Shown: piece by piece, positions 1 through 62,825 of the stretch
Layout of the letters: each line of letters begins with the position of its first letter
Numbering within the stretch: the stretch's first letter is position 1
Assembly (NCBI GenBank): GCA_033439255.1
Contig: CM065885.1
Location: forward strand, 1,736,001 to 1,800,000
Length of the DNA: 64,000 bases
Direction of reading: 5' to 3'
Source: Hericium rajendrae
Lineage: Eukaryota > Basidiomycota > Agaricomycetes > Russulales > Hericiaceae
Made by a program: the position numbers and the translations under genes
Notes under the pieces: model-generated
Database searches by the model: none
The model's input: only the letters and a program-made list of their open reading frames with translations
Told to the model about the DNA's origin: nothing

Positions 1-1559
1 ATTGAATTGAAGATATTGCCGAGCCCACCCTGAGAAGTGTGATCGCGTGCCATGAAATAAAATGCAGAGAGACAGCGCAGTCACTAAATCGGATGCCACC
101 CTTGCAGCGAGCTTCGGCACTATCGAACTGATCTGGTAGACAAGTCAATCTCGATGCTAAGACCGGACTGGTACGATCCGCCCACAGCGATGTTGGGGAG
201 TTTCACAATGTCCCATACACGGAATCTGCGATTTATATTCAGTCAAGATTCATCAAATGAATTCAACGTCAGAGACAAACTCTTTGACGACCTGCACTGT
301 AGTAAGAAATCAGCATGTTGAACGATCATCAATCAGGCGGTACGACTACATACCAATTCCAGTAGCTGGATTGTGATTAGCTCGTATCAGATCACATTGA
401 CTCATTGAATATCCGTGACACGCTCTCACCGACTTGCATCCCAATCAGCAGTACCTGCGTTGCCGAAAAGTCAGGTTCATTAATTAATTTGAACTTGCAA
501 AATCCGACATACGAGTATGATTGTCAAGGACCACCGCCATTTTCCCTTTGTCACTGCACTGAAAATGAGAACTATAGCTTCCAATTTTTGGAAAAGCACA
601 GACAGAAGTAGATCATTCGGGTGTAAAACCTGGAGATTGCGGGCGTTTCGTCACACGATTTTGAAGGTCAATGGAATGGTAACACTTACAGCTGTACTAA
701 AAAACAGATGGCGATCTGCCAACGAGTGTTTAAGTGACTCTTATCCAGACCAATTACGCTGAGACCAGACCCACCCCGACTCCAGGGGCCGCCTATACGA
801 GTGATGACATCAATGAAGGGAAATGTTTGGGACCGGCGAAAGGTACATGCATAAAGCGACCTGGTCAGGACGGCATAGTTAAGTGATTGGTATGACAGAA
901 CTGTCAGGCGTACGTACCATCGTCCACCTATCAACAAGAAAGGATCGTGGTAGGTAAGGATCTGAAGACGGGAAAAGGCGTAAAAATTCAGCCTTTGACA
1001 GAACCCAGGCTGGTGACGAAACGTACCAGGTAGTAATATGTCGAGTCGCATGCTGTCAATTTGGACGATTGATGTGAACTCTTGTCGGTAATGGTGGTAT
1101 AGCTTACTGAGAACTGCGTGCAGTGTTGACACGCAGCTTTTCAATACGTTGTCAGTGTGGAAAGGAGAACCGCAAGTGACGATACCAACAATAGCAGCGC
1201 GACCTGACTGAGTGTTGAATAAAATATCATACAACTTGTCGGTCGCTACTTACCAGCATTTTCAGCACCCCGCGGTCGTTCGGGTAGCTCAGATAGTACA
1301 GGTACGTCTTTGTTTCGGGGTCAACCTCACGCATATGCACCTCATATTGACCACTTGCCTGCAAGACCGACAGTCCGTAGAGAACAAGCATGACCATGCA
1401 GCATATCAACGCTCCGCCTATCAATCAATAATTCACCGACATCAACGCAGAGCTGAGTTGCATACAATTGGACGCACCGAAATTTTCACGAAAAACGCGG
1501 TCTGGAAGGGGTGTCGGTCCGTCGAGAGGGATGAGTGGAAGGCCCTGAGATGAAGACAT
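1..1559 (-). CDS. DUF6534-type membrane protein, copy 1 (cut by window edge)
   Basis: This is the 5' part of a gene running off the left edge. The chosen start is the ATG at 1557-1559. The N-terminus reads MSSSQGLPLIPLDGPTPLPD, and the first exon ends in a VFRENFG-type sequence. Later exons give a first membrane segment (ALICCMVMLVLYGLSVLQ) and then TYLYYLSYPNDRGVLKML, the order known from DUF6534 proteins of basidiomycetes: a seven-helix-like fold of unknown function. It continues through many small exons (for example CVSTLHAVLS near 1110-1135). The conserved C-terminal segment around YVNSCLATLNSR lies beyond the edge. It is about 80-85% similar to copy 2 at 28.7-30.9 kb. Function is unknown; a membrane location is inferred from the hydrophobic segments. 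I could not verify every splice site, so decay cannot be excluded. Confidence 0.5.
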
Positions 1560-1659
1560 GATACCCAACGAGGATACACAATATCGAGGAATAAACCTAC
1601 AACGACAGCAGGCTCGATGTCCCACACTTTTATACGAGCGAAAGGTGCGCGACCTCTTT

Positions 1660-2090
1660 GCTCTACTTATGTTGATTAGGCACCATCATCAAAGTGGTGT
1701 TGATCCGACGTTGGCTTGATGAACTGTCGACTGTTTTGATGAGGGGAATAACAGCGCTGGGACCTGCTGGAGCAATCATGATTCCATCGGAGGAAACGCA
1801 GGCCCGACACCAACGCGGAGCTGAGTTGCATAAATTTGGACGCACCGAGGTTTTCACGAAAAACGCTGTCTGGAACCGGTGTCGGTCTTCGAGAGGGATG
1901 AGTGGAGCCCAACGAGGATACACAGCATCGAGGGATGAACCTAGTGCACGACCTGTTTGCCCTAGCCACGTTGATTAAGCAGTTGAATCATCATCGTAGT
2001 GATGTTGATCCGACGTTGGCTTGATGATCTGTCGACTCTTTTGATGAGAGGAATAATAGCGCTGGCCACCAGCTGAAGCGATCATGATTC
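1660..2090 (-). repeat. Local tandem duplication carrying a spare DUF6534 exon 1
   Basis: Upstream of copy 1 its first coding exon occurs again at about 1815-1910, with peptide PTPVPDSVFRENLG in the minus direction. The flank at 1690-1790 is repeated at 1990-2100 (ctgtcgactgttttgatgag against ctgtcgactcttttgatgag). The unit is about 300-360 bp. Partner copy 2 has only one such exon, so this duplication followed the block duplication or was lost there. Whether the spare exon is transcribed as an alternative first exon cannot be told from sequence. Confidence 0.6.
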
Positions 2091-3029
2091 CAGCGGAGAA
2101 AACATAGGCCGATGCGACATTGGCAGTCCATTGTCAGTGACATCTACACAGGTCCCATCGGCGCAGAGCCTAACCACAATGTGACACATACATATGTCCC
2201 TTCTACCAATGTAGCAAGGCGTCTCTAAAGCAATCATGATCTGTTGCTGTTCAACAATACGGCAGTAACGCAATTTTTGGTGTCTGTTCACTATAACGCA
2301 AAAGCATGTCGATCACACGGTGGATAGAATATCTTCTGTATCAGACCTTGAACCGAGAAGCAGCGTCCTCATTGCTCAACTGATTGATGATAACAATGGA
2401 GCATCGGGGGTCCTCGCAGTGGATTCAGATCATTCAATGCGACTGGCCAGAAACAGCGCCTGAAAAGTCATTACATTAGCTGCTTTTAGAGGACACCAGA
2501 CGCGGAAAACAGACAAGACCGCGATGCCGGACTAAAGAGACCGTTAGCCCGGGCACCAAACTTCAAGAAAGCGTACAGCACTCACTACAGCTGCCCATGA
2601 ACGGGACAATTCCTGACAGCGAACTGCTGGATACGCATCGCCCTTCCGGTCAAGAAACAATGGTACACCTGGCTCGACACAAAGACACGATACCGGTTAT
2701 CGTAACACATAACAGATGCCTACAGATGATGTAGTCGCCCGAGCCGCTCCACTGGCAGTTTCAAGTATCGTCTCTACATCCTCTTCTGAGGGCGACCCGC
2801 AGACATCACTTGACGACCACTGCCTTGAAACATGCCAAAGCTTTTTGACGACACTTGCCATCACGGCAAACAGAACCTGCGCATGCGTTAAGAGCCAAAA
2901 AATCAAAAAACATTCAGATGTGTGATAAACAGACCTATACATTCCATGGTTGTTTCGCTGAATCAAATTCTTTGATGGAAGCAGCATCGACATGCGCAAT
3001 GATCGTGTCTCCGAGATCAGCAAGCGAGA

Positions 3030-3140
3030 ACGCGTCCAGAACAGCCTTCACGAGCGTGATGGGACCTCGGTCTTCTGCACGAGGTCGTCCCCGGCGTTCT
3101 CGACCACCAGAGGCGCATGCTCGTGCTCCTGCGGTTTCAT
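3030..3140 (-). pseudogene. Shard of the GVP36 BAR-domain gene
   Basis: These roughly 110 bp match the intact BAR gene at 34627-34740 closely (ccagaacagccttcacgagc against ccagaaccgccttcatgagc, then the shared run ggtcttctgcacgaggtcgt). In the parent this is the fourth exon, encoding the segment around VQKTEVAITLMKAVLD. Only this piece is present. It abuts the end of duplication block A and has no start codon or flanking exons, so it is a non-functional fragment left at a rearrangement breakpoint. Confidence 0.75.
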
Positions 3141-3808
3141 ATTGGTGCAGCGGACGTGTACTGAGTCGCGGGCTTTTGAGCCTACCACACTGTTGGTCCC
3201 TTGTAAGCATTTACTCTAGGACCATATCCCCCTAGCACTCGGACGGTGCGTCAGATTGCTGAATGTGGGAGGAGGAGGTACATTCTGTAGGGTGTGCAGT
3301 AGAGTAGGCAATATCGCTACATGAAGGAAGCGGCTGGTCGTGCAGAGATCATGTGAGGTCGCAGATTTGAAGAGAAGGGAATCGATCGAACGTACGTATA
3401 TACGTAGGGCGACTGTAAGCGGCTGTCACGGTGCTAAGTGCTTGAGTTTGTATTATGAGGCATTCTGCATCCTCGTGTCTGCGGCTTTCTCAAAGCATCT
3501 CATTGCGAACGCGGCTGCTTGCGTGAGGGTGAGGACGCGCTGAGAATGGCGCTCAGGAATGGGTAGGTCGCGAGGCGGAGGTGTCCAGGGAGAGGCCGAC
3601 TGGGACTGGCAGGGCTGGGAGCCGAGCTAGCAGGCATGGACGAGGTGAGAGAGGCAGGCGTCGAACCAGTCGGGTGTTCAGAAATTGAATGACGTTGCGC
3701 CCGATCGGGCCGGGAAGTGGTTGCTCCGACCCGGTTCGTCCCGATTATGCTTTACCCCGCAAATTGCGATCTTCTCCTTCGCTCCCCACGTCCTCGACGC
3801 TGCCCACC
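3141..3808. other. Spacer and promoter region before the PP2C gene
   Basis: No gene was recognised. The stretch separates the GVP36 shard from the phosphatase start and must hold the promoter of the plus-strand gene. An upstream in-frame ATG at 3689 lies here, but the one at 3809 has the better start context (ccaccatga) and gives a more typical mitochondrial leader. Confidence 0.5.
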
Positions 3809-5788
3809 ATGACCCCCCCAGGCCCTATCAAGGCCTTCCCCAAGCGACTCTACACCGTCCTCCCTCGCTCAGCAGCAGGCTCCTCTGCTCAGCGCGGTCG
3901 CTCTAGCTCCTTCTCCTCGTCCTCGGCACGCTCCCTCTTTACGGCCCCGCCCTCGTCGCTCTCCTCGCTCGGCTTCTTTGACACTCCTCCGCCGCCACAG
4001 GGCAAGCACGGCCACGGTCCTCTCACTCCCTCCCGTCTCCCGCCCCACTCCAAGGCAGAGCTTGAGGCTCCCGACTCACCCACCCACCATTCGCAGTCCT
4101 CCCAGTCATCGCATTCATCCAGCGGCGGAAATGGCTCGAACGGGAACAGCGGCAACGGTGCCCCACACTCCTCCATCGCCCTCTCCTCCACAACCCCGTC
4201 CACCCATTCGTCTAATCCTAACCACTCCTTCCCCACGAGCACGCACAATCCACCCTTTTTCCCGTATACCCCCTTCTCCACCCCTCCGCCCTCCGCGTCC
4301 GCAGCCGAGTCCGAGACTGCCCCGGACCATGCTTCCTCGCGGGCTGCCCCGCACAAACACCGAACGAAGTACCACTTTGACGTCGGCGCCTATGGCATTC
4401 CGAAGCGCGGCGACCGGGCGCGATCGCAGCATTCTCGCGTGATGGACGAGCTGGATCTCGCCGTGCAAGTTGGCGAGGATGCGTACTTTGTGCGGGAGAA
4501 TGCGATGGGTGTTGCGGATGGCGTCGGCGGCTGGTCACGATGCAGTGAGTGTTCTTCTTTATCCATGCCTGCGTTGGAGACAGCATGTTCGTGTGACTGG
4601 TAACTTCTTCGTGCGGAGCGATCGATTCGCAGACAAGTTGTTGTTCGACTACCGTGTATCTGGTCTACGACCCCGCAGGCGGAACGTGCACACTGCGAGG
4701 CCGCGCTGCACATGTTATCTATATTTACTGACATCTTTGTACAGAATCGTCCCTCACGGACCCCTCGCCCTCAGCCCTCTTCGCACGCCGGCTCATGCAC
4801 TTCTGCTCTGCCGAAGTCGCATCGTCGTTGCCCTCCCCGTCACCTTGCCCACCATCTCCCCCACTACCATCATTCACATTCGCGCCTCCATACGTCCCAT
4901 TCACTCCGCCACCGACGCCACCATCACTCGCGTCCGTGGCAGAAGAGGAGGACTGTGACGACGAGTACGACGATTTCGAAGAGGGCCTCGACGTGCTGCT
5001 GATCCTCGAGCGTGCATACGAGCGCGCGCTCAAAGCGCACGTCGCCCCGCCCGCACCGAGTCGCACGCCCCCGCCCCGCGTGCCGACGCCCCCCAAACCC
5101 GCACAAGAGCCCGTCCCGCTTCTCACCGGCTCCTCGACAGCCCTGCTCGCCGTCCTCGACCACGCCGGCCCCTCCCCACCGACCTTCCCCTCGCCCTCCC
5201 CAGACGACACACCCACCTCCACCTGCGACGCCATAATCCGCATCGCGCACCTCGGCGACTGCATGGGCATGCTCGTCCGCGGCGCCTCCATCGTCTGGCG
5301 CAGCGACGAGATGTGGTGGGCCTTCAACACGCCGCTCCAGCTCGGCCCGAGCACGCGCACGCCCCCGAGCGCGGCACAGCTGCTCACGCTGCCCGTGCGC
5401 GCGGACGACATCCTCATCCTCGCGAGCGACGGGCTGAGCGATAATTTGTGGGACGAGGACGTGCTCGACGAGGTCGTGCGCTTCCGCGCGGGCATGCAGG
5501 CCGGCGCCGCGGGCTGGTCGCTGCTCGGGCGGCGCACGCTCGCGGGCATGCTCAGCGAGGCGCTGTGCTCGCGCGCGCGGCGCGTCGCGGAGGCGCGCGG
5601 GGGCGACGAGATCCCGTTCGCGCGGCGCGCGAAGGAGGAGGGCCGGGTGTTCCGGGGCGGCAAGGCGGACGGTGCGTGCTTCGCTTCGTTTTTGGTGTCC
5701 GGCGCAGGCTGATAAGATCAATGTCGCAGATATATCGGTCCTCGTGGCGGTCATTTCGCCGGCGGAGGGCGACGCGCAGCCGCATTAG
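3809..5788 (+). CDS. PTC7: PTC7-type PP2C protein phosphatase, probably mitochondrial
   Basis: Metal-dependent Ser/Thr phosphatase of the PTC7/SpoIIE-like branch. Exons: 3809-4544, 4745-5671, 5730-5788; 573 aa. The N-terminus is rich in Arg and Ser with few acidic residues, like a mitochondrial presequence. A long Ser/Pro/His low-complexity segment follows. Catalytic blocks are GVADGVGGW (metal-binding Asp), LFARRLMHFCS, TGSSTALLAVL, IAHLGDCMGMLVR, ILILASDGLSDNLWDEDVLD and the C-terminal KADDISVLVAVI with its metal Asp. Yeast Ptc7 dephosphorylates the coenzyme Q enzyme Coq7; the same role here is inference. The catalytic half has two Pro/acidic inserts (about residues 265-310 and 330-390), making the protein longer than the usual 340-400 aa. 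The first intron is 200 bp, long for this window. Confidence 0.85.
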
Positions 5789-6104
5789 AGCGGCAGCTCT
5801 GCTTCCTGTCCTATTCGCGTCGCGCTACCCACCATACAGCCATACATACTTCGTCTGTACATAAAACCCCCGCCGGGACTTCTCTTCGACTTCATGCCTC
5901 GATCATTCGACTTTCCTTAGCTCTATGCTTCATTCCCGCGCTTCGCATCTTGATTCAGCTGCATATGTACCCGTACTCTCCCTACACGTCCCGTTGTCGC
6001 CTGCATGCATCTATACAGTATAAAGTTGGTCCGCATCGGACATTGCATGGTCTACCCCACGCGTGCTGGCTCCGCGCGCAGTCGGACGGAAACAGGTTAT
6101 AGAG
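5789..6104. other. 3' flank of the phosphatase gene, no gene seen
   Basis: AT-richer convergent spacer between the plus-strand phosphatase and the minus-strand unknown gene. No open frame with recognisable content. Confidence 0.5.
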
Positions 6105-6398
6105 CTTTTCGTTAGCGAAGCAGGCTACGATACACCTTGTATGCAAGCTGAAATACAAAGTCAGTATTCCTTTGTTTTATAATCACGCCTCCGCAGGTCC
6201 GAACACCCGCTCCGCTGCCTCAACGTGTGCCCCCACCGCGTACTCCAGCCCCGCCAGCACGCTGCCCCGCCGAGTCCCCGTGCCGAGCGCTTCTAGCCCT
6301 CGAGCATCCCGCGCCGCGGCACGCACGCGCGCAGGTCGCGGTGCGCGGGCCCGCCCGCGGCCGACAACAAGCCAACCGCGCAGGTTATACTTAGTCAT
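6105..6398 (-). pseudogene. Degraded second copy of the last exon of the unknown gene
   Basis: On the minus strand this ends in ERVFGPAEA and a stop, exactly like the intact gene ending at 6480. The flanks downstream of the stop also match (acaccttg, then aatacaaagt, then attcct, in both copies). The copies are offset by 297 bp. Upstream of the shared terminus only patches remain (ARDARGLEALG against ARRPTLEGLRALG), consistent with an internal deletion. It therefore looks like a tandem duplication of the terminal exon plus 3' flank, followed by decay. Read-through from the intact gene cannot use it, because that gene stops first. Confidence 0.65.
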
Positions 6399-6479
6399 AA
6401 AGTTTGTTGTTAGTGAACCGAGCTACAATACACCTTGCGTACGTCAAAATACAAAGTTAGCATTCCTCTGCTTCTCCAA

Positions 6480-7571
6480 TCACGCCTCCGCAGGCCCAAA
6501 CACCCGCTCCTCCGCCACCCGCCGAATCTCCTCCACTACCTCCCGCACCTCCCGCTCCTCAACCCGCGCCCCCATGGTGCTCCCAACGCCAGCACATCCC
6601 AGCTCCGCCAACATTCCATGCAGCTCGCCCGCACACTCCCGCAGCTCCACCGCGTCCCCGTGCGCGAGCAGCGCGCCGAGCGCGCGCAGCCCCTCCAGCG
6701 TCGGGCGCCGTGCCGCCAACAGCCGCACGCAGTCGCGCAGATCGCCGTGCGCCAACATGCCCGCAGCCGACAACGCGCCGACCGCTCGCGCTTGCGCCAG
6801 CGCGCCCGCCGCATCCTCACCAGGCCTCAACTCACACCCACCGTCCTACACCCACCGCATCAGCCACATCCCACACACCACAAAAAAAAAGAAGAGACGC
6901 ACAGCCGCCCACCACCCCCCAAACCCCCCAATCGCACACTCGCGCACGCACCACGCAAAGCACGCGCCCGCGTCGCCGTAGCACGCGCGGAACGCATTGT
7001 CGAGCGCGCGCGCGGTCGCCGCGGCGGCGGGCGCGGCGACGCACCGCGCGAGGTCGGCCGTGCGCGCGGGCGTCCAGTCGCGCAGCGCGACGACCGCGTG
7101 GGCGTGGAAGGCGCGGAGGGCGGGGGTGCGTGCTGCGAGGGCGCGGGCGAGGGGCGTGGACCAGGGGCGGAGCGGGTGGGCGGAGGCGGGCGCGAAGGGC
7201 GCGGCGCGGGGGTTGAAGGCGAAGGTGTCGGGGGTGTCGAGGAGGCGGTCGAGCTCGGCGAGGAGCGGCGTGTGCAGGTCGACGGTGTATTCGTCTGCGT
7301 CTTTGCTGCTGGATGTGGAGGGCCCTGGCTCGGGGAGCTCGACGAGCGTGTCGTGCGAGGAGCTCGTCGGAGAGCTCGAGAAGGACAGGTCGGAGCCGAA
7401 GGGCGATGGGAGGCTTGGGAAATCGTCGTCCTCGGGCCGGGGTGCTGTGGGGGACGGCAGCGGGTCCTGCTTCCACTTCCCGGACACGGCGCTGGAGTAC
7501 GAGAGCACCTTCGGCTGTGGTACGAAGGGCGGCGCCTCGTGGATGCTTGGGCGGTGTAATATGTGAGACAT
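6480..7571 (-). CDS. Unknown protein, 324 aa
   Basis: Family not recognised. Start ATG at 7571 (MSHILHRPSIHEAPPFVPQP). Exon 1 is 6948-7571 and exon 2 is 6480-6830. The intron 6831-6947 is inferred, since the reading frame closes inside it and a CTGAT-like branch site and AG acceptor are present; the donor GTGCGC is weak. The N-terminal third is Pro/Ser-rich and acidic and looks disordered. The C-terminal two thirds are Ala/Arg/Leu-rich and helical (for example LAARRPTLEGLRALGALLAH and EVREVVEEIRRVAEERVF), possibly a helical repeat or coiled coil. Very high GC and strong codon bias support coding. The opposite strand carries long open frames that are GC-driven shadows. Confidence 0.6.
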
Positions 7572-8130
7572 CGGCAGACAATGTTCGGGGCGGTTGGATA
7601 TTGGAGGTGAGCCGCACGAATAAATCAGCGCAGGGCTTTATATCCCTGGATGGCAAAGGCAGATATGAAAGGGAGAACAAAGCGTGAAGGCCCTTGCAGC
7701 GCTTGGTTCCTCGTGTCGGCCATCCTCGTGGCGAGTGGGCCTGCCCGCTCCAAACTGCAGGACCTGCAGCAGCAGCCAATCACTTGACTGGGATGTGCAC
7801 ATTTCTGGAGGGCGATGCCCGCTTGAAGTTGAGCGCATACAAAAACGTATCCAATACACTGGTTTTGCAGACGCACCTGCGAGACCGCTGCACAAACACC
7901 ATTTCAGGGATAAGATCGCACCAGGAAAAGCCGATAAAATGGCGCAGTACCAGGTCTTCGTTCTTTTCGAACATTATCATGGTCGTCTTGTTGAATACAA
8001 GGTGCGTTTTCATGACTGCAATTTGTACGTCCTCGAAGGTGACTGTCGGCAGAAGAACAAGGCTCATGGGCCCACAGCACCATACAAACAGGTCGGATAC
8101 CAAGATTATTAAATGTTTAGTCGTTAACAA
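7572..8130. other. Spacer, no gene seen
   Basis: Holds the promoter of the unknown minus-strand gene and the 5' flank of the tRNA-Ser gene. Short open frames are present but none has a recognisable motif or codon bias. Confidence 0.4.
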
Positions 8131-8232
8131 GACACTATAGCCAAGTGGTTACGGCGACAGATTCGAATTGGATATTCCATAAAACTTATCTGTTTCCCTC
8201 TGGGAGCGCAGGTTCAAATCCTGCTGGTGTCG
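8131..8232 (+). tRNA. tRNA-Ser (anticodon CGA), with intron
   Basis: Acceptor GACACTA (8131-8137) pairs with TGGTGTC (8225-8231), and the discriminator is G8232. The anticodon stem is ACAGA (8157-8161) with TCTGT (8189-8193). The loop gives TT-CGA-A, so the anticodon is CGA at 8164-8166. A 20-nt intron (8168-8187) lies one base 3' of the anticodon, the canonical place. The long variable arm (tccctctggga) fits a serine tRNA. The T arm is GCAGG-TTCAAAT-CCTGC. A T4 run follows at about 8252, a plausible Pol III terminator. Confidence 0.93.
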
Positions 8233-8459
8233 GTAATGGATGTCTGTGGTATTTTACTGCAGCGTCCCTACTGATTTTGTTACCCATGCAATGCCTATGC
8301 CAATGCAATTAGAATCGCGTATTTTTGACGGCATCCCGCCCTAGATGGATGTGTGGGTTGGGTCAGCTAAGGATACCAGCCTAGCATTAGCATCTACAAA
8401 ATATGACAGAACAGCCTGTAGATCCTGGTATGATAGCACCCCGTACAGTCCAATGCAAA
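8233..8459. other. Spacer between tRNA-Ser and SDA1 3' end
   Basis: No gene seen. It contains the Pol III T-run just after the tRNA and the 3' flank of SDA1. Confidence 0.4.
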
Positions 8460-11146
8460 TCAATGATACGACTTCTTCGCCTTGTCGATATGCGCCCTCA
8501 ACCGCCGCTGCTTCTCCCTCAGCGATTGCTTCTTCTTCCCCCGCACGCCTTGGCTCCCCATAATCATCATGATCGGCTTGTTCCGTTTCTTCTCGCGGTT
8601 CGTCGTGCTGCTCACAGTCTCCCGGTTCTTCTTTCCCTTCATCGAGCCGAACTTCTCGCGGCCCTCGCGGCCCTTCGCGATCGACGCCATCCGCTCCTCG
8701 TAGTCTGCCTTGGTCTTCTTGCGCGGTCCGAGGATGTCTTCCTCGCCGACCACGGCGGTCTGCTCGTCGGCGGCGGAGTAGCTCGATTTTTGTGCGGCTT
8801 GCAGCTCGCTCAGTTTGCGTTTCGCGGACGTACCGCCGCCGGCTTCGACGGCTTTTGACGCCGCTTTCAGGCGCAGATCGTTCAGCATTGCAAAGTCGGC
8901 CGGCGTCAGAATCTGCAAATCTGGTGAGCCACTGGAATATCCTTCAAAGAACATTGACGCACTTTTGTAGTGGCCAGTGTGGATATCCTGTCTGGCTCTG
9001 GAGCGGCAGATGCGCTCTTCGCCGCCTTTGCGTCAGCATCGGCTTCGTCGTCACTGTCGCTGACGACGATGTTATCGTCGCCATCACTTTCGACGTCGAT
9101 CCAGCCGCCCGTGTCGGACGACGAGTCGGACGAATTTGACTCGACATCCCAGCCGTCCCAGCCATCACTCTCGTTCTCATCTCCTGATGCAACCCCGTCT
9201 TCTTCTCGCAGAGCCTTGAGGTGGTCCTCGAGCATCTATGACCGATATGAGCATCAAATAGGCAGGCAAAACCCAGGAAAATAGACGTACAGCCAGGCCC
9301 TCGATATCGATGGCTGCGTGCTCGCCATGGCCGAACGGTGCCGGTTGGCGGCCCTGCGCCATATCCATGCTCGCAGTCTTACCCTAAAGAAGCAAGGCAC
9401 AATTAGCACCGTTGTGCCCATCCAGCACACAAACGGCTTACCCTCTCCCTCCGTTTAAGCATCCCCGGATTCACATCCCTGAACAACTGCAGCAGCCCGC
9501 GCGCACCGCGCGTGACCGCTTTATCGCGGCTCTTCCGGTACTCGATCAGATCGTTCAGCAGATCCTCCTCCATCGCCCACGGCTGCCGCCTGCAGATCTC
9601 CCGCACCGAGTTCAACCCCGCCGCGATGACCTCGCTGCCCACGCCCGGGTGTATGAACTCCTGCGCGAGCTTCCTAATCACAGGCGTAATCGCGTCCGGT
9701 GGCGTGAAGTCGTGGATGGACTGCACCAGGCACGCGAGGATCGACGGCACGCGCAGCTGGTGGTACGTGAGGTACTTCATGACGTACGTGTAGAAGCCGA
9801 GCACGGTCAGCTTGTGCGCGCCGACGGCGCGCGAGAGCAGCTGCATGATGAGGATCTTGTGGTCGAGCGAGAAGCGCTTGTCGTAGCGGTTCAGGATGTC
9901 GTAGAGCTTTTCGCTGAAGCTTTGCGGGTCGTGCAGGAGCTGCAGCGCCGGGAAGTTCGTGCTAATCTCTGAAGCCTTACGCTTTTTTTTCTGCGGAGGT
10001 ATGGACAGATGAGATGAGATTGCACAATACATGGAGGTGCTACTTACCTTCTTGTCGGATTTGATGGTCTTGCGCATCTTGTTGTCCCCGCTGCGCGTCT
10101 TCTGTTTGACTGCGCGCTTATGTATGAGAGCTTTGATGTCCATGGCCTGAGGATTGCTCAGTGAGATAACATAGACGACCAACGAGATCAACTCACGTTG
10201 TCGTCTTCGTCGTCGCTGTCCTCAGCGTCATCATCGCTGCCGAGGAAAAAATGGATGGAAGCGCTCTGTACTTTTACAGAGGGATGGAAACAACCAAGAG
10301 CAACGATCGCGACCGACTTGGCATCATCCCTGTCAAGCGAAGCAGCAGCGGTTGGTCAGAGGGCGAGCCGTGGAAACAAATTAGAGACGCACCAGATACC
10401 CTTCGTCCAAAGTTCCTTCGTGACGATGACAGCCCAAACTGCCTCCTCTCCATTCTTGACTGAGCCTTCGTCCCCTGCAGAACGAGCTTTGCCTTTGTCC
10501 CCAATCACATCTGCATCCATCCCTCGCTCGACCATCCCGAAAAGCATGGCCTGGACGGCACGGTTCAGCTTGTGGTTCTTCGTTCGACTATTAGCGGTCC
10601 TGATGTCCGACAGGATAGTTTTACGAATAAATGCACGCAGAGACGAGGATGTTGAACGCGGGAGTAAAGGAAACAGTGTTTTTAGGAGCCTGCGAATCCT
10701 TCAGCATGATGCAGATGCGATGAGAGGAGAGGAGGATGCGCACTCGATAGACGATATAACATTTTTATTGCGGAGCATCACCAGGTTCTGCACGAGATTG
10801 TGACGGATATCAGGCGAGAGACTCCCGAAGTGCTCCAGAAGCAGGGATGACATCTGCGAAGGAAACTCTTTTGTCTCGGCAGGATAACATTGTGTAACCT
10901 ACATGAGAAACCATTAACTCTGTACGCATTTTTTTCCATAGAAGATAAGCGACTGACCTGCGAAATGAAGGAGACAAGCTCTCTGAAGTGGCTGGCCTGT
11001 TCATTCGGATTGATCTGGAAAATCTGGCGGATGCTAAGGTAGTGGTTCCATTGCTGAAGAAACTCTTCCTTGTAGCCGACAGGATCGCGTTTGATGAGAT
11101 TTTGAAGCTGGGGGAGATTAGAGGTCAACAGAATGCCTCGTGCCAT
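8460..11146 (-). CDS. SDA1: SDA1, nuclear protein for 60S ribosome biogenesis
   Basis: Nine exons were traced with consistent phase: 10958-11146, 10744-10898, 10393-10689, 10197-10329, 10048-10146, 9442-9990, 9291-9383, 8963-9235, 8460-8912, giving 746 aa, close to the family's usual size. The N-terminus [20 protein letters not shown] followed by [19 protein letters not shown] is the SDA1 N-terminal domain. Other hallmarks are [32 protein letters not shown]-type helical repeats, [37 protein letters not shown] and [18 protein letters not shown]. An acidic stretch (about 500-570) precedes [17 protein letters not shown] and a very basic C-terminus ([16 protein letters not shown]). Yeast Sda1 acts in late pre-60S maturation and export, and in actin organisation and G1 progression. 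No defect seen. Confidence 0.95.
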
Positions 11147-12574: not shown

Positions 12575-12646
12575 GTTATAACGTGTATGAATCGGACTGA
12601 CGATGCTCTGGATATTACTCCTGCTTAGCATCGTCCTTTGAGCCGG

Positions 12647-24818: not shown

Positions 24819-24839
24819 CCAGCGCGCGCCATGCTTATT

Positions 24840-51060: not shown

Positions 51061-51549
51061 CTCCACTGACATTGTCTTGATGTAGATATCGGTTGTTTGA
51101 ACTACGTATTAGATTGGCTACTTCAAAGTTTATGCTCCCCGCGCTGCACACGCCGCCCTTCATATAACTTTCATCTCCTGAAAGCAGCTATTGAGATGAC
51201 TTCATACGGCATCGTCTCCCACAACTAACCATCTCGATTTAAAGCTCTGGGTTCCAATATACTCCCCGTTCTGATCAGCTCAAACTATCTCAGTGTCTTG
51301 TCAGCTGATAGGTACTTCGACACCGAAAGAACAGACTGGGTGACCAAGGTACAATTCATCAGTGGTGCGCCTGTTCCCTTCTTCGCACACATCAGCTCTG
51401 ATTTGGATCTCTCTTCCGGGTCAAACTATTTTAACTGACGGGAATTTTCGATTCAGTATTATGACGAGATAACATTTTCCTATCTTATAGTCGTACACAG
51501 GTTTACCTACATCGGATGGACTGGTTTGAACTGTAAGGCCCTCGGGATG
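51061..51549. other. Spacer between DUF6534 copies 3 and 4
   Basis: No gene recognised. The following 51550-51861 resembles the upstream part of block B (tcttccacgatgcgatgctg here, tcttcacgatgcgatgctga at 60164). Confidence 0.4.
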
Positions 51550-51861
51550 TTGCCGGAACTCGTCTTCCACGATGCGATGCTGATCGGAGCAAGAATACAA
51601 TGACTTCCATTCAGCTTACTGAAGGGCTTCTTTGTAGTGCTCGGAATCCGCACAATCTGGGAAGGGCGGAAAGTGGTCCGCTGAATCCGTGCTCACTTCG
51701 ATCGGTGCAATCACCACACTATGACCGTTCTACACTAGAAGGTGCACGGATCGCGGCCAACTTGAGCAACAGATCGCCACAGATCCCGCACATATAAGTT
51801 GCTGGGGCCTGCTGTAGATCGTGCAGAACTTCCTCGGCGCTGCTGTTCCTCATTGCTAAAT

Positions 51862-54039: not shown

Positions 54040-54303
54040 AGCATACCAAAGTACCACAACTTTCCACAAGGCAACCTCGGGCTATCTCCTGATCATGAGA
54101 GTTGGGACCAAGGTTGTGGATCATTGATCAAGGACGTGATTTGGAGAAAATGGGTGCCATCGTCGATGGTATAGAGTATATACTGAGTATGCACACAGTA
54201 GTACAGACGATGATTCTGAGAGCTCAGAGGACCAGTGTAGACGCTTGTAAATACTACGTACCCTAACCTATAGTCCCCTGCAGACATTTGTAGACGCCGG
54301 AAG
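54040..54303. other. Spacer before the hAT-type element
   Basis: No gene seen; ends in the target site GCCGGAAG (54296-54303). Confidence 0.4.
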
Positions 54304-54980
54304 TAGGGCTCTGTGTAGAACTCCCCACGGAGTTTCTCACGCGTTTTAAACAAAACGTGTTTTAAACACGGTGTTTTAAACAGAGTTTCTAACTACCACA
54401 GTGTAATACGTAATGATGCACCAGACCCGACAGAATTAGCCATCAAATCTATTCTGCTCCACCCAAGGATCGTCAGATATGTCTCCGTGTGTTGAGGATA
54501 TGCCCGACTCAGGAAGAAGGACATCAGAGTGGCCAATACAGACTTTGACGGCAGCATTCCTGATCTATAAATGGCCTTGCTTTCGCATCGCCGGCGCTGA
54601 GGACAATATTGAGGCCTGAGGATCGGCAGTCAGAAATCAAGAAACAATTCCTGATTTGTGGTGCACGCTCAGATCTGAGCCTCGCCAGTTGGCCGCTCCG
54701 TGACTTTAGATCACCATACACCCCTCCCAATGCACTGAATGATCACCACCGGGATCGCGCATGAGCCTGCATGAGCTCGAGGGCCACCGCCGTGTCGATG
54801 TAGTCAATGCCGCCCTTCCCAAGCCTCCCCCGATGGTTCCCCGAGCCTCTTACGTAATACACCGAGTGACGTTTCTAACACCTCAAAATATGGTACCCTC
54901 GGCAAATAGGTGTTTATAACGTGTTTATAACGCCTTGTTAGAAACTGAGTTTCAAACAAACACTTCTACACAGAGCCCTA
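54304..54980 (+). mobile_element. hAT-type MITE, 677 bp, with 8-bp target duplication
   Basis: The left end TAGGGCTCTGTGTAGAA is exactly inverted at the right end, giving 17-bp perfect TIRs. They are flanked by identical 8-bp GCCGGAAG at 54296-54303 and 54981-54988. TAGGG-type TIR ends with 8-bp duplications are diagnostic of hAT elements. Left subterminal DNA has three GTTTTAAAC boxes (within 54342-54379); the right side has two GTTTATAAC boxes near 54910-54930. The interior has no transposase. Perfect target duplications and TIRs suggest fairly recent insertion. Confidence 0.88.
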
Positions 54981-55432
54981 GCCGGAAGCATCTCGATCCG
55001 AATCTTGTTTCTATCAATCACCGTGACCGATGGCCCCTTCGACGTGCTCATCATATCACCGCAGTGGCGCTCCTTTCTGGCATCCGCACGTCTTTCTACC
55101 ATCTCCGTGCACTATGTAAGTACGTATAGCTTGCAGATATAGCCTGATATCGACGGCATTCTCACAATTACGGATGCTATCGCCAACCTGCTTTCATCTT
55201 GCGCTATGCTTGGTCTGTGTGGGAGGAGTGGACGCCTGGAAAGGCGACAAGACGCTCGAAAGTGTGAAATAGGGGAGAATGCGGTCGAGGACATGCTTCA
55301 GAGAGAAGCAGACTTTCGCATCGCGTTTTCCTGTTCCCATGTTCCTTCAAGTGTTCTCTCTAGTAAGTGTTCGCTGTCGCTGCCTGTCCTCTCTCCTCCA
55401 AACTCACCTAGCAAACACTCTGCTTCAGAAAA
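54981..55432. other. Promoter region of the flavin monooxygenase gene
   Basis: Contains the right target duplication and the upstream region of the monooxygenase; no separate gene recognised. Confidence 0.4.
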
Positions 55433-58075
55433 ATGACGACGGCTTCGATTCCTGTGCGATCCCAGCTCACTCTGCCCACGCTGTCCAGGCTGCAGTCGAC
55501 CGTACCCGCGGATGTCTCCCCAGCCGCAGTAGCTGCCCAATGGCTTGACAGCTTCTCAGCAGCAGTCTCCTCCAAGAACGCGCAAGCCATCGACAGCCTC
55601 TTCCTTGAGGATGCCTTCTGGAGAGACTTACTTGCCCTCAGTTGGGACTACAGATCCATCCAAGGCATTCCGCGCATCCGCTCTTTCTTCGACGCCTGCG
55701 TAGGCAGTGCCGGCCTCTCTATCTCTGCTATTGCACGAGACCCTCACCGCTCTCCCGTCCTTCGGAGCCCTTTCCCCGACCTTTCATGGGTCCAGTTTGG
55801 CTTCGACCTTGAGACGTCTCTCGGGAAAGGCCAAGGCTTCGCGCGCATCGTTCCTGTAGCGAATGATGAATGGAAGGCCTATACGATGTTCACCACCCTC
55901 GAGTCTCTTGCCAACGACAACGTGCCGTATTCACTCTCTCGCCTTACTTGCGCATCCATTGACTGTTTTTTTCCTGTGAAGGACTCTCCGGCGCATCAAC
56001 TTTCTCAGGAAAAGGACTGGCTGAGTCGCCGCCAGCGCGAAATAGAATTCACTGACGGCGATCCTTCTGTGCTCATCATCGGCTCCGGCCATACTGGCCT
56101 CGAGCTTGCCGCTCGTCTCGGCCAGTCCAACATTCCCACCTTGGTGGTCGAGAAAAATCCTCGCGTAGGCGATAACGTGAGCTCACCCCGTGTCTAACCT
56201 CCAAGTCTACTCACTGTTGTCTAGTGGCGAAACCGCTACGATTCGCTTTGTTTGCACGACCCCGTCTGTGAGTCCCTGATCCCTTTCTGGGGTCAAAAGC
56301 GTCTGATGGGTCGCATGCTCAGGGTGTGATCATATGGCATATCTACCGTAAGATGGAGTTTGGAGTTCTATGTGGTCTCGGGATGCTCGTTTCTGACACG
56401 AATATGGAAGGTTCCCTTCGACTTGGCCTATCTATACCCCGAGAATCAAAGTAAGATAAAGATCACTTCCTCATATACTCGGCTGCCCTCTCACGCTCTC
56501 GCAGCTCGCCGACTGGCTTGAATCTTACGCTCAATCACTCGATATCAATGTCTGGACATCGTCCAACATCGAGTATGCGCGTTGGCTTCCCGGTCAGCAA
56601 CTTTGGGATGTCTCCATCGTCCGAGATGGCAAGAAACGAGATCTGCGCATCAAGCACTTGATATTTGCTACCGGTATGGGCGGCGGTGTGCCCGTAACCC
56701 CCGATATCCCAGGAGAGGTCTGTAGTATGCCCTCTCTCCATCTTCATTCGCTGTTCTCTTGTTAAATGTGTATGGTTGAATAGGACAAGTTCCGTGGCGA
56801 GGTTCTTCATTCCTCTATCTTCCACTCATCGAAGCCGTACCTCGGAAAGAAAGTTCTTGTCGTTGGCGCTTGCAATTCCGGTACGATTCCTTCCTGCTGG
56901 TCATCCAGCCGTCTTTTCTCTGACATCTGTGCTTTTAGCCCATGATATCGCGCAAGATTTGGCCGAGACAGGTGTCGACGTAACAATGTATGCCGTCCTC
57001 TTTGCACATCATCTCGCCGTTAGCGATCTCATACGATACGTCTCAGGCTCCAGAGGTCATCAACATTTGTTGTCTCGGCCAAGGCCATTGTCGTGATGCT
57101 CAGCAGTGAGTCATCCAGTCTTCTTTCGCGCGCGCCTGAATTCACTGAGCATCTGTCCAGAGGCTTACCGAGAAAACAACCTACCTATAGAGGTCGCCGA
57201 CTACCTGAACGCCTCTATCCCTACTGCCATAGCCAAAATGATCCAGCAGCGCGTGACCCCCGACATCGCGGCCACAATTGACAAGTGAGTCAATTCGTTT
57301 ATCCATCTCTTATCTTTCTTACCCGCGGCGTGGCCGTAGAGAACTACACGAGAAGCTCCGAGGTGCTGGGTTCCAACTCAACATGGGCCCTGATGGCTCC
57401 GGGCTGATGCAGCTCTTCCTGCGTCGCGGCGGCGGATATTATATCGGTACGTCGTCCTCTGACATGGCTATCTTGCGTGCTGTATCCTCATCGGTATCCC
57501 TTCCAGATGTCGGAGCCAGCTCTATGATCGCGGAAGGCAAGATCGGACTGAAGTCTGGCACGGAGATGACGGAATACACGGCCAATGGTGTCAAGCTTGC
57601 CGATGGCTCCGAGCTGGAGGCCGACGCTATCGTTTTTGCGACTGGGTACGTATCACGCCGCTCGCATCGCGCGAGCATGCGTCCTTTCCTTCTGCGCTTT
57701 CGACGTGTCGCTGACCATCCTGGTCGGCGCAGGTTCGGCGACCCCCGCAGCCTCGCGCGCGATCTCTGCGGCGCCGATGTCGCAGACAAGCTGCATCCAG
57801 TGTGGGGCCTTGACGAGGAGAGCGAGCTGAGTAGCGTGTGGCGCTACTCGGGCCATCCTCGACTGCATTTTGCCGGCGGTGAGTCGTGCGCCCCATGTAT
57901 CTGATTCCTTGCTTATTCGATTCTGTCAGGAAACTTCGCTTTGTCGCGCTTCTATTCCCACTACCTTGCGTTGCGTGCGCTGCTCTTGTCTGTTTCATTT
58001 TGGACGTTTGCTCATTATATCCTAGAGATCAAGGCGGAGGAGGACGGCGTGGCTCCTCAGCGGTATGCTCAGTAG
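55433..58075 (+). CDS. Flavin-containing monooxygenase with N-terminal SnoaL-like domain
   Basis: Start ATG at 55433 (MTTASIPVRSQLTLPTLSRL); stop at 58075; around ten exons. Residues about 35-160 form an NTF2/SnoaL-like module (AAVAAQWLDSFSAAVSSKNA, DAFWRDLLALSWDYRSIQGI). The FAD Rossmann motif is VLIIGSGHTGLELAARL, with VVEKNPRVGDNWRNRYDSLC following. The FMO fingerprint region is FRGEVLHSSIF, and the NADPH motif is KVLVVGACNSAHDIAQDL. Later blocks are STFVVSAKAIVVML, YRENNLPIEVADYLNASIPT, ELEADAIVFATGFGD and the C-terminal HFAGGNFALSRFYSHYLALQ. Basidiomycetes have many such FAD monooxygenases for detoxification or secondary metabolism; substrate unknown. The second NADPH glycine motif is altered (GACNSA rather than GxGxxG), as is common in this subgroup. 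The first intron (55922-55981, 60 bp, no stop) might be retained. Confidence 0.82.
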
Positions 58076-58181
58076 GCGGCGCTAAACTCTCGTGGATTCG
58101 ATGTCTCGGATGGTCCTGTCGTACTCGTGCCGTTTTGGGTGTTGTTGAGTATATGGCCATTGCGTTCACAGCTTCTCACTT
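58076..58181. other. 3' flank of the monooxygenase gene
   Basis: Short spacer, nothing seen. Confidence 0.3.
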
Positions 58182-58617
58182 TTACCCACTTACTACCAAG
58201 TTACTAGACGTGAGGAAATCCATGAATCGTTGAAGACCTCGTATGGCTATGCGAGACATACCGCGGCAGCGTGGCAAGCTGCTTTTGCTCAGCTGTAAGC
58301 GACTGCTGCTCCACGGATCGGGCGCGCGACGCTCCTGGTTGTATGTGGCCACCTCAACATCATCGACGGGTAGTACCTTCACGATCTTCGGTATCTGAAA
58401 GCGCGGGGCCGGACGGTGCGTTCCTTCCGCTGGGCGGCCTTTGCGGACGGCGATGCCTGTTGCTGCGTATGTGTAGTGACCACTGACCGACTCATTGGGT
58501 GAGTGTCTGCGGTTATAGAATGCTGAATAGGCCGGTGCACAGACCTTGGGTTGCGCGCCCGTTAACAGCGATGATCGTTTTGACGGTGTGTCGTTGTCTG
58601 TCGACGCCATAAAAAAG
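58182..58617 (-). pseudogene. Unknown gene fragment related to the right-edge sequence
   Basis: The minus-strand frame from the ATG at 58617 reads MASTDNDTPSKRS and later IPKIVKVLPVDDVEVATYNQ. Similar text occurs near the right edge (minus strand MATTDDSTINDV from 63870; EIVKVLLVDGDVATNHQE at about 63474-63525). The family is not recognised. The two regions probably come from one gene, and this one is likely incomplete. Confidence 0.35.
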
Positions 58618-58631
58618 CTGACAGGCGAACA

Positions 58632-58934
58632 TTGCAAATTATTTCCCATCAATTCCACTGCTTTAGTCACTGGCAATTTCGGGCTTTACGCTGCTCGTCA
58701 TATCGTCGTCAAAACACCTCCCAACTCAGATGGCCCGATACGCCATACTATCACTATAGCCTCCAGTTTCAGCTGTCTGCGAACAACGGAGCCCCCATGG
58801 ACGGCATGGTGCGAGTCTACGCGGCAGCCTCTAGCCAGCCTCTTTCAGATGGCACTGTTGTGTTCATAAAGGCGAAGGTGCATATCGCGCCTGAAATTGG
58901 CGGTGCCATCCTGGAGCCGATATACATAGATTGA
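58632..58934 (+). CDS. Short open frame, possible last exon of an unknown gene
   Basis: The frame ends LQFQLSANNGAPMDGMVRVY, then AAASSQPLSDGTVVFIKAKV and HIAPEIGGAILEPIYID with a stop at 58934. The second half looks beta-rich and protein-like, but no start, splice partner or family is evident. Confidence 0.25.
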   Translation: MQIISHQFHCFSHWQFRALRCSSYRRQNTSQLRWPDTPYYHYSLQFQLSANNGAPMDGMVRVYAAASSQPLSDGTVVFIKAKVHIAPEIGGAILEPIYID

Positions 58935-59680
58935 TATTGAACAGTCACTTATCCGTCGGCTTGTTGTTGACACGTTTGTCTGGCATTGGTGATGATCCAC
59001 CAGCTGTGGCCCAAGATTCAAGTACTCTTTAGTTGGTTTGTGTGGTAGCATGGCCGGCGCTTAGCACTCGCTTAGTATAGGAAGCGCTGTGCTGTTGACC
59101 ACGAGGCATCCTCTGCCTCTTTCGACACGCGCTCATTAGCACATCGTCGCAAACACTTTCGAACGTTACATACAGACATCAGGAACTCAACCTCTCATAC
59201 TCAATAAAGTACTGCCCGTTCCAGTGCAATGACTTGTTGATCTGGAAAGAGAGCTTACGTACGACGCCTTTGCGTTGGAATAGCGCGCTAATTTATTTCG
59301 CCCGCATTTCCCAACCTCATTGTCTTTATCTTCTCTATGTTCGTCGTAAATGCTATTTACGCGTGGCATTGATAGTGTGGGTGGGACCGCTGTTGGTGAA
59401 GGAGCTGAAGCGGATCATCGAGCAGAGCGAAATCACCCAGTGCGTGTAGCAGCCATATTTCCACCGCATGTCCGGTGTACTCATATAGATTTCAGGGAGC
59501 ATAACATTGGCCAAAGAAGAACATCGTGACAGCAAATAAGCCCTGTGGGCAATGACCATATTGCATTGGAGGTATGCTTCTTCTGCGAACGTGTCTTCAT
59601 ACCGAGATTTTCTCTAATACGCCCAAGCAGATTGCGAAAATCAGCTCGTTGGTGGACATTTAGGATAGCCTGAAGGTCTC
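58935..59680. other. Spacer, no gene seen
   Basis: Several short frames only; no recognisable motif. Confidence 0.35.
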
Positions 59681-60098
59681 TGGCTTCTGGTTCAGCGGTG
59701 CCACTCCCAATGCGATCGAAGCCCTCTAAGCCCCTTACAGTACGTCAAGCATCAGTTTCCGTCTGGCTTGGGTTGACCTGGGTTGCCCGAAGGTCTGCTG
59801 TAAACAAGGCTTCGGGCTCTGTCAAAGCAGCTCCCGTGAAACCTTCCGAGGGGCGGAAAGTCGCTTCGTACATAGACCGTTATGTCCCTCTGTTGCCCTG
59901 CTGATAACCACTCCAGCGAAAGGATCACTCCACCCTCCGCCCCTGTCTTCGCATTTCCCAAATCCACCAAGCTTCTCCGCGGCATCACACTCAACCCCGA
60001 AGAGCGTGCATTTCACGCGAGCATTGTCCATGGCCGCGGCGATCTCAAGCCCTACCAGCACCCACAGACCCATGCATCTCCCATTGCGCTCGTCTGAA
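59681..60098 (+). pseudogene. Partial copy of RSM10 (uS10m) including intron sequence
   Basis: Aligns with 44980-45395 of the intact gene. It holds the end of exon 2, the second intron, exon 3 (VKAAPVKPSEGRKVAS for VKAALIKPSETPKAVS), the third intron, and the start of exon 4 (TLNPEERAFHASIVHGRGDL then KPYQHPQTH). It stops just after HASPIALV, where sequence similar to block B begins. Since both introns came along, this is a DNA-level copy, not a reverse-transcribed one. It has no start exon and no S10 core, so it cannot make uS10m. Confidence 0.88.
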
Positions 60099-60099
60099 C

Positions 60100-62825
60100 T
60101 GAACTTGAGGCGCGCCATGCCTCTGATTACCGTATCCTCCGAGCAGGCGCTTCTATACTCATCTTCACGATGCGATGCTGATGAGGACAAAATGAAACGA
60201 CGCCCAACGGGTCCCAAGCTCCATCTGTAGCTATGAAAAAGCTTGCTGTGTAGTCATTAATGTTCCTCATCATGGTCGGGAGTCTGTGCCGGCGCCCATG
60301 AAGATCACATAAATGTGCACGAACAATGGCTCGCCGCCGGGACTCGTGCTTCCACCATGGATCGATCACAAAGGCAGACCCCATAGTAGCAGGCATGCGG
60401 AAGTTTTTTAGAAAAGTTAACACACGGTCAAACAGTCATAGGATGGCCATCATTCCAACACGGTGCAGTGACTATCTGGGCCTGCGAGATCCCTGCTTAT
60501 AAGCGACTGTTATGCCGACTACTGATATGGAGACCCGGCTGTTCGTTCTGCTGAATCATCTCACAGCTAGCTGAGCAAAAAAGCGCTATCTGTCCTGCTC
60601 AGTACTATAAATACCCGTGACATCAAAGTTATTGAAGCTTGTAGATATCCTCCCTGGTGCCGTACCCCCTCATTGCGGATGTCTATGTCTCAAGACCTCT
60701 CATCCCTCCCTCTCGACAGACCTACTCCCTATCCAGATGGTCTCTTCCGCGAAATTTTTGGTGCGTCCAGTACTTTGGGGACTCGACTATGCTCATGTCT
60801 ATAAATCCATTACGTGTCAGGTGGCACACTGATATGTTGCATGCTCATGCTCGTCCTCTACGGACTATCGGTGTCGCAGGCAAGCGGTCATGCTCAGCTC
60901 TACGTGTCATTAGTTTGAACCTCATCGAAGATATACTTGTACTACCTGAATTATCCGGATGATCGCCGGATGCATAAAGTGCTGGTAAGTTATATTTGGC
61001 AGTTCTGTGCGACGTCTTGTTTAACCTTCGATCAGGTCACAGTGCTCTTGTTGGTACTGCCGGTCGTGGTTTCCAATCCGCTCTGACGATGTGCGAAACA
61101 GCTGTACATCAACATTGCATGTAATCTTTGGTAAGCATTCTGTCTTACTCCTAGAGTCGTATTGAACAGCCTCATGGACAGCTTGCGATTCCGTGTATCA
61201 CTACACAGTGCATCTCATCGTAAGACTGCGTCTGGATCGGAACCTAAAGCTTTTATTTGTCTCTAGATCATCACATACCACGACCCATTGTTATTGATCA
61301 GTGGATATTGGTATGTGTGTCTCGTTGTAACGTTGTTTTAGCTCCGATTGATCACGAATTTCCATTGCTAGGTCACTTTATGCATGAGCATTCTGCTGTT
61401 GCCATTCTTCCATTGACTAACGTTTCTGCTTGCTTAGGCAGCCCCTGGAACTGGGGTGGGCTTGCATCAGCAAAACGCTTTTGATTTATGACTGACCTTG
61501 TTTTTAGGTTTTCATCTGCTTTCTAGTCCAATCGTGAGCTTTGTCAAAATTTCGTGGATCTACGTGATCACCGAATTTATGGTCAATCTCAGGTTCTATA
61601 CGCGGATGATCTACTATTGTCGGTGCATCTGTGCCTTTTTTTTTTTGGTATACTTCTCACGTGCATTGTTCGAGCAGTGACAAAAGGCACCTGGCGCTTG
61701 CTCCTGACCACTATACTTGTATGCAGCATTTCATGGGCTCGGGTCGACTGCGAGTCAAAGCTAATTCGTCAGGAATATAGGTGCTGTTAATCTTTACGCA
61801 AGTTGGTAAGCGTGTGTTCACTGACAGCGATTACAATCTAAGAGGGGACTACGCTCCAGGTTTTGGAATTTGTACGCGAATAGGATCCTTTGTTGATATT
61901 CTTCACTAATTCAATCACTACAGTGACGAATGTTAGATCGTCAGTCCTTATTCAGTTCTTGCTAGACCTTGCTTCGATCAAACATTAGATTCCGTGGATG
62001 GGATATCATGAACCTGTCAAGCATTGCTGTAGGATTCAACTAGCCTTCTCCCGATCGCCAAGAATAATGTATTCACTAGCTCAGCTCGATCGTTCCAATG
62101 ATTGCTGCCAGGGTTGCACCAGACTTAGTGACTGCGCTATCACTTTGCATTTGCTTGCGTCACGCACAACAGGGGAACCTTATAAAGTGCGTTCCACGGT
62201 ACTTTTGATTGCTTATTTGACGCACCTCTGACTCCCCCGAAAAGATCAGCAAAATTGGTTCATACCTTGATCATTTTCTCTGTGAACAGATTTCTACTGA
62301 CTACGTATGTACGATTTTTGGCGTGCGAGATTATGCTGCTGAAATAGCACAGGGTAGTTGTTGTTGTCCAAATGATAGTGGTCAGTTTCCCTGTCGTGTC
62401 AGCAGGTCTTCTTGACTGACCAACTTGAATGACTAGCTCATCTACTCGCCCACTAGCACTTGGGCTATGCCAATAGACTACGTCAGCGTTCATTGTAAGC
62501 CTTCCTCAACCATATACTTTGGTGTTTCATTCCCTTCGCAGTGTATGTGAACAGCTGCTTGGCGACGCTCAATTCGCGCAACCACATGCGCAGCATCGGC
62601 GAAAACGGCACAGAGCAATCTGATTTCCTGACCACAGGCCACGGCATCGAGTTCGAACGTCCGCAGATTGTCACCACGAGCAGAGACAGACATTCAGTGA
62701 ATGTTGAATTGACCCGCACGAGGACCACGGAGGAAGTGGGGATTGATATGGTAGACTCTGTCAAAGATCATAACCCGGACTGTACTATGGTATGGATTAT
62801 CTCCTAATCGAAGTCTCACCGGCTA
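60100..62825. repeat. Segmental duplication, block B copy 2 (partner 48330-51060)
   Basis: Partner of the block at 48330-51060. Its left edge coincides with the breakpoint of the RSM10 shard at about 60098. Confidence 0.85.
60679..62807 (+). CDS. DUF6534-type membrane protein, copy 5
   Basis: Start ATG at 60679 (MSMSQDLSSLPLDRPTPYPD), aligning with MSLAQDLLSFPLDRPTPYPD of copy 3; a second in-frame ATG lies two codons on. Following exons read TLICCMLMLVLYGLSVSQ and TYLYYLNYPDDRRMHKVL. The C-terminal exon has VYVNSCLATLNSRNHMRSIG and a tail ending in DCTMVWIIS with the stop at 62805-62807. Copies 3 and 5 are the closest pair on the plus strand. It contains an eleven-base T run at about 61636 in or near an intron. 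Function unknown; membrane location inferred. Confidence 0.55.

Follow-up and report, generated by a model that had tools for sequence, protein, structure and literature searches.

The DUF6534 genes of the window

The window analysed here is the whole 64,000-nucleotide stretch C8:1736001-1800000 of the basidiomycete Hericium rajendrae, a member of the Russulales (contig CM065885.1 of assembly GCA_033439255.1), which carries five genes of the DUF6534 (PF20152) family in duplicated blocks, together with broken pieces, or shards, of neighbouring genes (Table 1). The genome searched for comparison comprises 46.8 Mb in 19 contigs. The genes were modelled with a comparative spliced model built over ten genomic copies, and all five window models match PF20152 at 47.2-56.1 bits, above the curated cut-off of 28.2 bits, which agrees with the five genes named in a preliminary description of the window. 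An exon-by-exon search of the genome with the family lists 17 matches, none of them inside the window. The predicted models are very intron-dense, with ~330 codons distributed over 18-21 exons, several of which are only 10-18 nt long. The frames are open from start to stop in 10/10 modelled copies, including all five of the window, which by itself is weak evidence because the modelling method picks the splice sites. The model of copy 4 has 18 intron positions, and 15 of the 16 aligned paralogues, which lie on three contigs, retain 17 or 18 of them as GT/GC-AG; the same 15 genes have no stop within the first 270 codons; the exception, C9z, keeps 13 of 18 splice sites and has three stops. The ratio of nonsynonymous to synonymous substitution rates (dN/dS) among DUF6534 genes is 0.05-0.39 in all 13 comparisons; in that of copy 3 with copy 4, one codon coincides with a stop at a point of disagreement between the exon models.

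Among 7995 scored candidates, 15 are protein relatives, and those with names come from mushroom-type fungi. The best is a Hericium alpestre protein with 53% identity over 56% of the query. The structure model of one relative, P0004, which is not a protein of the window, has seven long helices at a mean pLDDT (predicted local distance difference test) of 69.6, and its best fold matches are mainly G-protein-coupled receptors (GPCRs) and rhodopsins, none of them at E <= 0.001.

Table 1. Features of the window, with positions counted from its first nucleotide
Feature	Position	Strand	Model, match or remark
DUF6534 copy 1	1-1559	-	spliced model, PF20152 47.2 bits; gene extends 535 bases left of the window into upstream locus L022
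Block 1 (window part)	1-3134	+	partner of block 2, parts missing
GVP36 3'-exon shard, right end of block 1	3020-3134	-	88% to 34617-34732
Inverted DDB1 5'-region shard	18806-19197	+	73-78% to 24222-24090, 23991-23799, 22544-22465
DDB1-type gene (approximate span)	19300-23807	-	PF10433, PF23726, PF03178 across frames
Block 2	24775-34732	+	likely source-side partner of block 1
Amine-oxidase-like flavin adenine dinucleotide (FAD) gene (matched part)	26334-27497	-	PF13450, PF01593
DUF6534 copy 2	28829-30869	-	spliced model, PF20152 48.8 bits
Amine-oxidase shard beside copy 2	32334-32843	-	62-69% to 26334-27016
DDB1 shard beside copy 2	32916-33372	-	pieces 32916-33053 and 33195-33372; 65% to 23329-23838
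GVP36-type BAR-domain gene (matched exons)	34617-35273	-	PF10455 BAR_2, two frames
RSM10 gene, mitochondrial S10-type (approximate span)	44978-45836	+	PF00338 97 bits
Unit A (window part)	45049-64000	+	whole unit to ~74092, ~10 kb past the window; recurs whole or in part as B, C, D on C8
Bmt2 ribosomal RNA methyltransferase gene	46154-47167	+	PF11968
DUF6534 copy 3	48903-51045	+	spliced model, PF20152 51.9 bits
DUF6534 copy 4	51862-54035	+	spliced model, PF20152 56.1 bits
Flavoprotein gene (approximate span)	55412-58609	+	PF13450; unit B begins inside, near 56829
RSM10 shard, left part of copy 5 block	59683-60093	+	73% to 44978-45388
DUF6534 copy 5	60679-62807	+	spliced model, PF20152 50.6 bits

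Duplicated blocks and units

A DNA search of the genome with copy 3 places DUF6534 relatives, among the matches listed, at 10 places on C8, spread from 1.7356 to 2.0313 Mb (~296 kb), and gives weaker matches on C9 and C14. Several multi-gene blocks of high identity lie in this one region of C8 (units A-D, described below), which is the pattern of segmental duplication. The strands given in Table 1 and the block alignments both agree with the earlier placement of copies 1 and 2 (minus) and 3, 4 and 5 (plus) within duplicated blocks: 1-1801 aligns with 29330-31117 at 83% identity, 48315-51098 with 60099-62859 at 77%, and 48850-51101 with 51808-54036 at 69%. The process is not confined to one 64-kb neighbourhood, as had been supposed, since the duplicated region extends over ~300 kb of C8. 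On C14, the DUF6534 cluster (L023:1-4242, L024:700-4928) holds a 4.24-kb local repeat of 94.5% identity that runs at its end into the 5' part of the DUF6534 gene that follows.

In the right part of the window, self-comparison of 264 kb together with locus L021 reveals a ~29-kb segmental duplication in at least four copies, units A-D, interrupted by long terminal repeat (LTR) retrotransposons. The duplicated unit contains RSM10, Bmt2, DUF6534, a flavoprotein gene and a NACHT-WD40 gene, and units A-D together hold copies 3-5 and five further DUF6534 genes. Unit C has RSM10, Bmt2, three DUF6534 genes, the flavoprotein gene, a WD40 region and LTR inserts. Unit B, which begins inside the flavoprotein gene and has only what follows, carries a single DUF6534 gene. 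Unit D, in the part of the unit covered, has RSM10, Bmt2 and one DUF6534 gene that is 97% like copy 3 and is joined directly to the sequence that follows copy 5, a junction that unequal exchange would predict. The Bmt2 frame is open in units A, C and D. Units C and D begin at the equivalent of 45049, so that part of the 5' end of RSM10, whose exact 5' exon we infer, is missing from them; the RSM10 of unit C has an in-frame stop and an LTR insert, and that of unit D has one stop, in a stretch taken as intron. LTR elements with 5-bp target duplications are found in unit B (CCGAT) and in the unit C RSM10 (CAAGG), where the 487-bp LTRs are 100% identical. A Pfam search of the minus frames of 44001-46502 gave no match.

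The NACHT-WD40 gene of unit A lies directly past the window end (L001:4405-8335) and has a NACHT domain and 14 matched WD40 stretches, which are encoded by 129-bp repeats of nearly the same sequence; a satellite reading of these repeats was dropped because they code WD40. Long open frames are also present in unit B, and an insert breaks the unit C copy. To the right of unit D, C8:2036907-2048792 gives weaker matches to 59.1-59.7 kb of the window, which suggests still more unit pieces.

In the left part of the window, block 1 (L022 and window 1-3134) matches block 2 collinearly over 24775-26328, 28579-32053 (gapped), 32169 to ~32415 and 34617-34732. The first of these stretches holds the partner of L022 (24775-26315), which extends block 1 leftward, and the amine-oxidase gene that separates the first two stretches in block 2 is absent from block 1. 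The blocks are separated by 21 kb with SDA1-type, DUF5648 and DDB1 genes in between, and the left pair is therefore a dispersed local copy. Since an intact GVP36 continues beside block 2, block 1 probably derives from block 2, and the GVP36 shard marks a block end. A Pfam search of 2001-5002 in six frames gave no match. Copy 1 has a tandem repeat of its first-exon region directly upstream (1436-2110), with 69% identity overall and 89% in one stretch.

Gene fragments near the copies

The five shards score 65-220 bits each, whereas among 100 Markov-resampled queries the highest score did not exceed 32 bits. They had been described as bordering or closely following the DUF6534 genes and as suggestive of a copy-and-insert process. 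Four of the five are indeed no more than 2.1 kb away from a DUF6534 gene, and DDB1 pieces occur twice beside copy 2, as reported, if the two matched pieces of that shard, both of which adjoin copy 2, were meant; the exception is the inverted DDB1 shard, which is 9.6 kb away from copy 2 and has a DUF5648 gene on one side and DDB1 on the other. The copy-and-insert part of the description is not supported by the RSM10 and GVP36 shards. Had template switching of the kind known as microhomology-mediated break-induced replication (MMBIR) or fork stalling and template switching (FoSTeS) repeatedly copied pieces of neighbouring genes along with DUF6534, the shards would be short templated inserts at the joins; the GVP36 shard is instead collinear with block 2, and the RSM10 shard is better explained by a deletion. 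At copy 5, sequence from 60099 onward, just after the shard, matches 48315 onward, and the middle, which comprises the 3' part of RSM10 and Bmt2, is missing. Units A and C have the same join, across which unit C is nearly identical in sequence. Unit B continues ~40 bp further into RSM10 than A and C do, and beyond its LTR insert 162143-162554 (264-kb coordinates) matches 47875-48291, ~400 bp of extra flank downstream of Bmt2. Because unit B retains more of the lost sequence on both sides, the shard is best read as the remnant of a deletion inside a copied RSM10-Bmt2-DUF6534 block. The short TGAAC repeat at this join in units A and C is compatible with end joining or slippage and to that extent favours template switching, at a different join from the spot beside copy 2 discussed next. 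The truncations of GVP36 in block 1, RSM10 in units C and D and the flavoprotein gene in unit B are places where block ends cut through genes.

Beside copy 2, the amine-oxidase and DDB1 shards follow each other in direct orientation in that order, the reverse of the intact genes, where DDB1 lies left of the amine oxidase. This reversed order rules out a single tandem duplication as the source; it could have come from two or more tandem steps accompanied by losses, from a circular intermediate or from template switching in the backward direction. At 62-69% identity the joins beside copy 2 are unreadable for microhomology, and so do not decide between these mechanisms. Template switching is thus possible at this one spot, and the inverted DDB1 shard, being made of three pieces, would also suit it; as an explanation of the shards in general we consider it unlikely, given what the RSM10 and GVP36 shards indicate and the decay of the old joins beyond any reading of microhomology. 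Block 1 apparently includes the first ~20 bp of the amine-oxidase piece; on this weak match the piece would predate the block duplication.

The same order of pieces bears on the idea that the shards were captured or mobilised by transposons, through Helitron-like capture or reinsertion of circular DNA, and landed near DUF6534, since a join from amine oxidase to DDB1 is expected from a circle of 23.3-27.0 kb. Dispersed repeats near the shards, such as 33512-33809, which matches several contigs, and the presence of a DDB1 piece on C2 also fit this idea. It is nevertheless very improbable: the shards lie near their sources, their gaps, read by eye, are not intron-precise, and no element ends were noticed, though no dedicated search for them was made. 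Retrocopying was rejected on a similar reading by eye, in which the gaps of the amine-oxidase and inverted DDB1 shards are not intron-precise and the RSM10 shard aligns through.

The C2 piece, 368 bp at 80%, has no DUF6534 match in the 3 kb covered there, and with the inverted DDB1 shard it weighs against a special link between shards and DUF6534. Shards away from DUF6534 genes, which would refute the preliminary description, thus do exist for DDB1; RSM10 and GVP36 pieces outside C8 are not among the matches listed in the genome DNA searches, an absence that is weak evidence because these searches missed several known 62-78% pieces. The search that gave the C2 piece scored 11 of 12 candidates, and that for RSM10 scored 40 of 51. 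Missing from the matches of the former are the location of the query itself and the two shards beside copy 2, amine-oxidase and DDB1, and from those of the latter the RSM10 shards in units B and C. Of two control stretches, 3200-11900 has matches elsewhere only in one dispersed stretch of ~100 bp, with 8 places listed, and 39200-44300 only in one 138-bp stretch on C6.

The inverted DDB1 shard adjoins a second local duplicate pair, the DUF5648 genes at 11972-13068 and 17392-18484, which are 90% identical. At 37607-39140, a 46-bp inverted repeat with arms 1.4 kb apart, whose left end is 97-100% identical to places on C1, C3, C4 and C13, looks like a DNA transposon.

Sequence exchange and relationships among the genes

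Identity between the units is a patchwork of ~73-100% in 250-bp steps. Units A and C are 98-100% identical over most of copy 5 and 96-100% over copy 4; their identity is 76-87% for the greater part of copy 3 and 73-99% beyond copy 5. A and D are 98-99.6% identical over 48150-50400 and mostly 85-97% elsewhere. The introns show the same pattern (99.8% for copy 5 and its unit C counterpart C5, 97.6% for copy 4/C4, 82.4% for copy 3/C3), and protein-level selection is therefore not the cause. In 5/5 three-way alignments the number of runs falls below all 2000 shuffles (166 against a shuffle mean of 231, 288/519, 27/56, 117/174 and 215/370), in a test that takes no account of rate variation along the sequence. 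Such a patchwork is as expected of gene conversion or unequal exchange, either of which may have operated here. Part of the pattern could in principle come from the assembly, through collapsed or chimeric repeat units or mixed nuclei of a dikaryon, and the 99-100% identity seen in stretches of units that lie over 100 kb from each other would be in keeping with that. The units differ, however, in transposon insertions and deletions and have 73-90% stretches in between, blocks 1 and 2 are only 83% identical, and C8 is a 2.8-Mb contig, which together make an artefact a very unlikely source.

Copies 3-5 and the DUF6534 genes of units B, C and D form one clade (support 100 in two DNA trees, 99 and 95 in protein trees), and copies 1 and 2 pair. 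In the protein tree without the C9 genes all C8 copies are joined (support 100). When the C9 genes are included, DNA places C9y with copies 1 and 2 (100), the protein tree includes C9z in the C8 group (100) but leaves C9y out of it, and many deep nodes have support below 70; the position of C9z is doubtful because of its few retained splice sites and its stops in the shared model.

Origin of the cluster

The best explanation, to which we give a probability of about 0.8, is that the DUF6534 cluster arose through birth-and-death evolution by ordinary segmental duplication, accompanied by sequence exchange and decay; most of the gene fragments next to the copies look like what such duplications ordinarily leave behind. 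Blocks of ~5-30 kb with DUF6534 genes and adjoining genes would have been duplicated on C8, yielding the left pair with copies 1 and 2 and at least four right units. Deletions, block ends that truncated genes and transposon insertions would then have removed passenger genes, leaving the shards, while the units continued to exchange sequence through non-allelic recombination or gene conversion and purifying selection maintained the open frames of the DUF6534 genes. The block structure, the passengers, the unit B intermediate of the RSM10 shard, the patchwork identity and the low dN/dS carry this explanation; the order of the events we infer. The duplicated blocks and the shards at or inside their borders bear out the earlier view of amplification through local block duplication.

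Several points weigh against the segmental-duplication account. It leaves the DDB1 shards away from DUF6534 genes unexplained; blocks 1 and 2, 21 kb apart with other genes between them, are not a simple tandem; the order of the pieces beside copy 2 is a product that no single tandem duplication yields; and rate variation could contribute to the low run counts. On a single local origin for all five copies, and on the sisterhood of the group of copies 1/2 and that of copies 3-5, the trees with and without the C9 genes do not agree.

The locus indicates how DUF6534 genes can multiply: blocks are duplicated, units exchange sequence and genes are lost. The passenger genes record this history, and unit B is an intermediate by which a shard left by deletion can be told from one that was inserted. 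A more speculative proposal, which we think improbable, is that the unit is a recognition cassette, in which candidate seven-helix receptors and a NACHT-WD40 immune-type receptor are co-duplicated within a hot spot of ~300 kb and diversified through patchy gene conversion; the locus would then be a variation-generating region whose housekeeping neighbours are broken as a side effect.

Comparison with known systems

The mechanism of duplication is itself of a known kind. Among the papers found that name DUF6534, no title or abstract opening concerns how these genes multiply, a statement that carries no wider claim of being unpublished. In the parts of the source available to us, a survey of 1357 fungal genomes reports DUF6534 proteins as the largest cluster of otherwise unexplained seven-helix proteins and proposes those of Agaricomycetes as a possible new GPCR class (PMC12842992). 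The five window models, all above the Pfam cut-off, and the seven long helices predicted for P0004 resemble that description; the subject there, as far as those parts go, is predicted function with no local duplication, and the GPCR fold matches found here are weak. The mouse Abp family, an example of a birth-and-death cluster in segmental duplications with gene conversion, from the portions of its account consulted (PMC3669608), shares block duplication, passengers, exchange between units and retrotransposons in the array, and differs in that the present cluster is a fungal seven-helix family with NACHT-WD40 and housekeeping passengers. The Podospora hnwd NACHT-WD40 genes, according to excerpts of two reports (PMC1805685, PMC2873952), have near-identical WD repeats, like the 129-bp repeats and 14 WD40 stretches here; the gene of this locus, in contrast, is a passenger of a segmental duplication and is broken by an insert in unit C.

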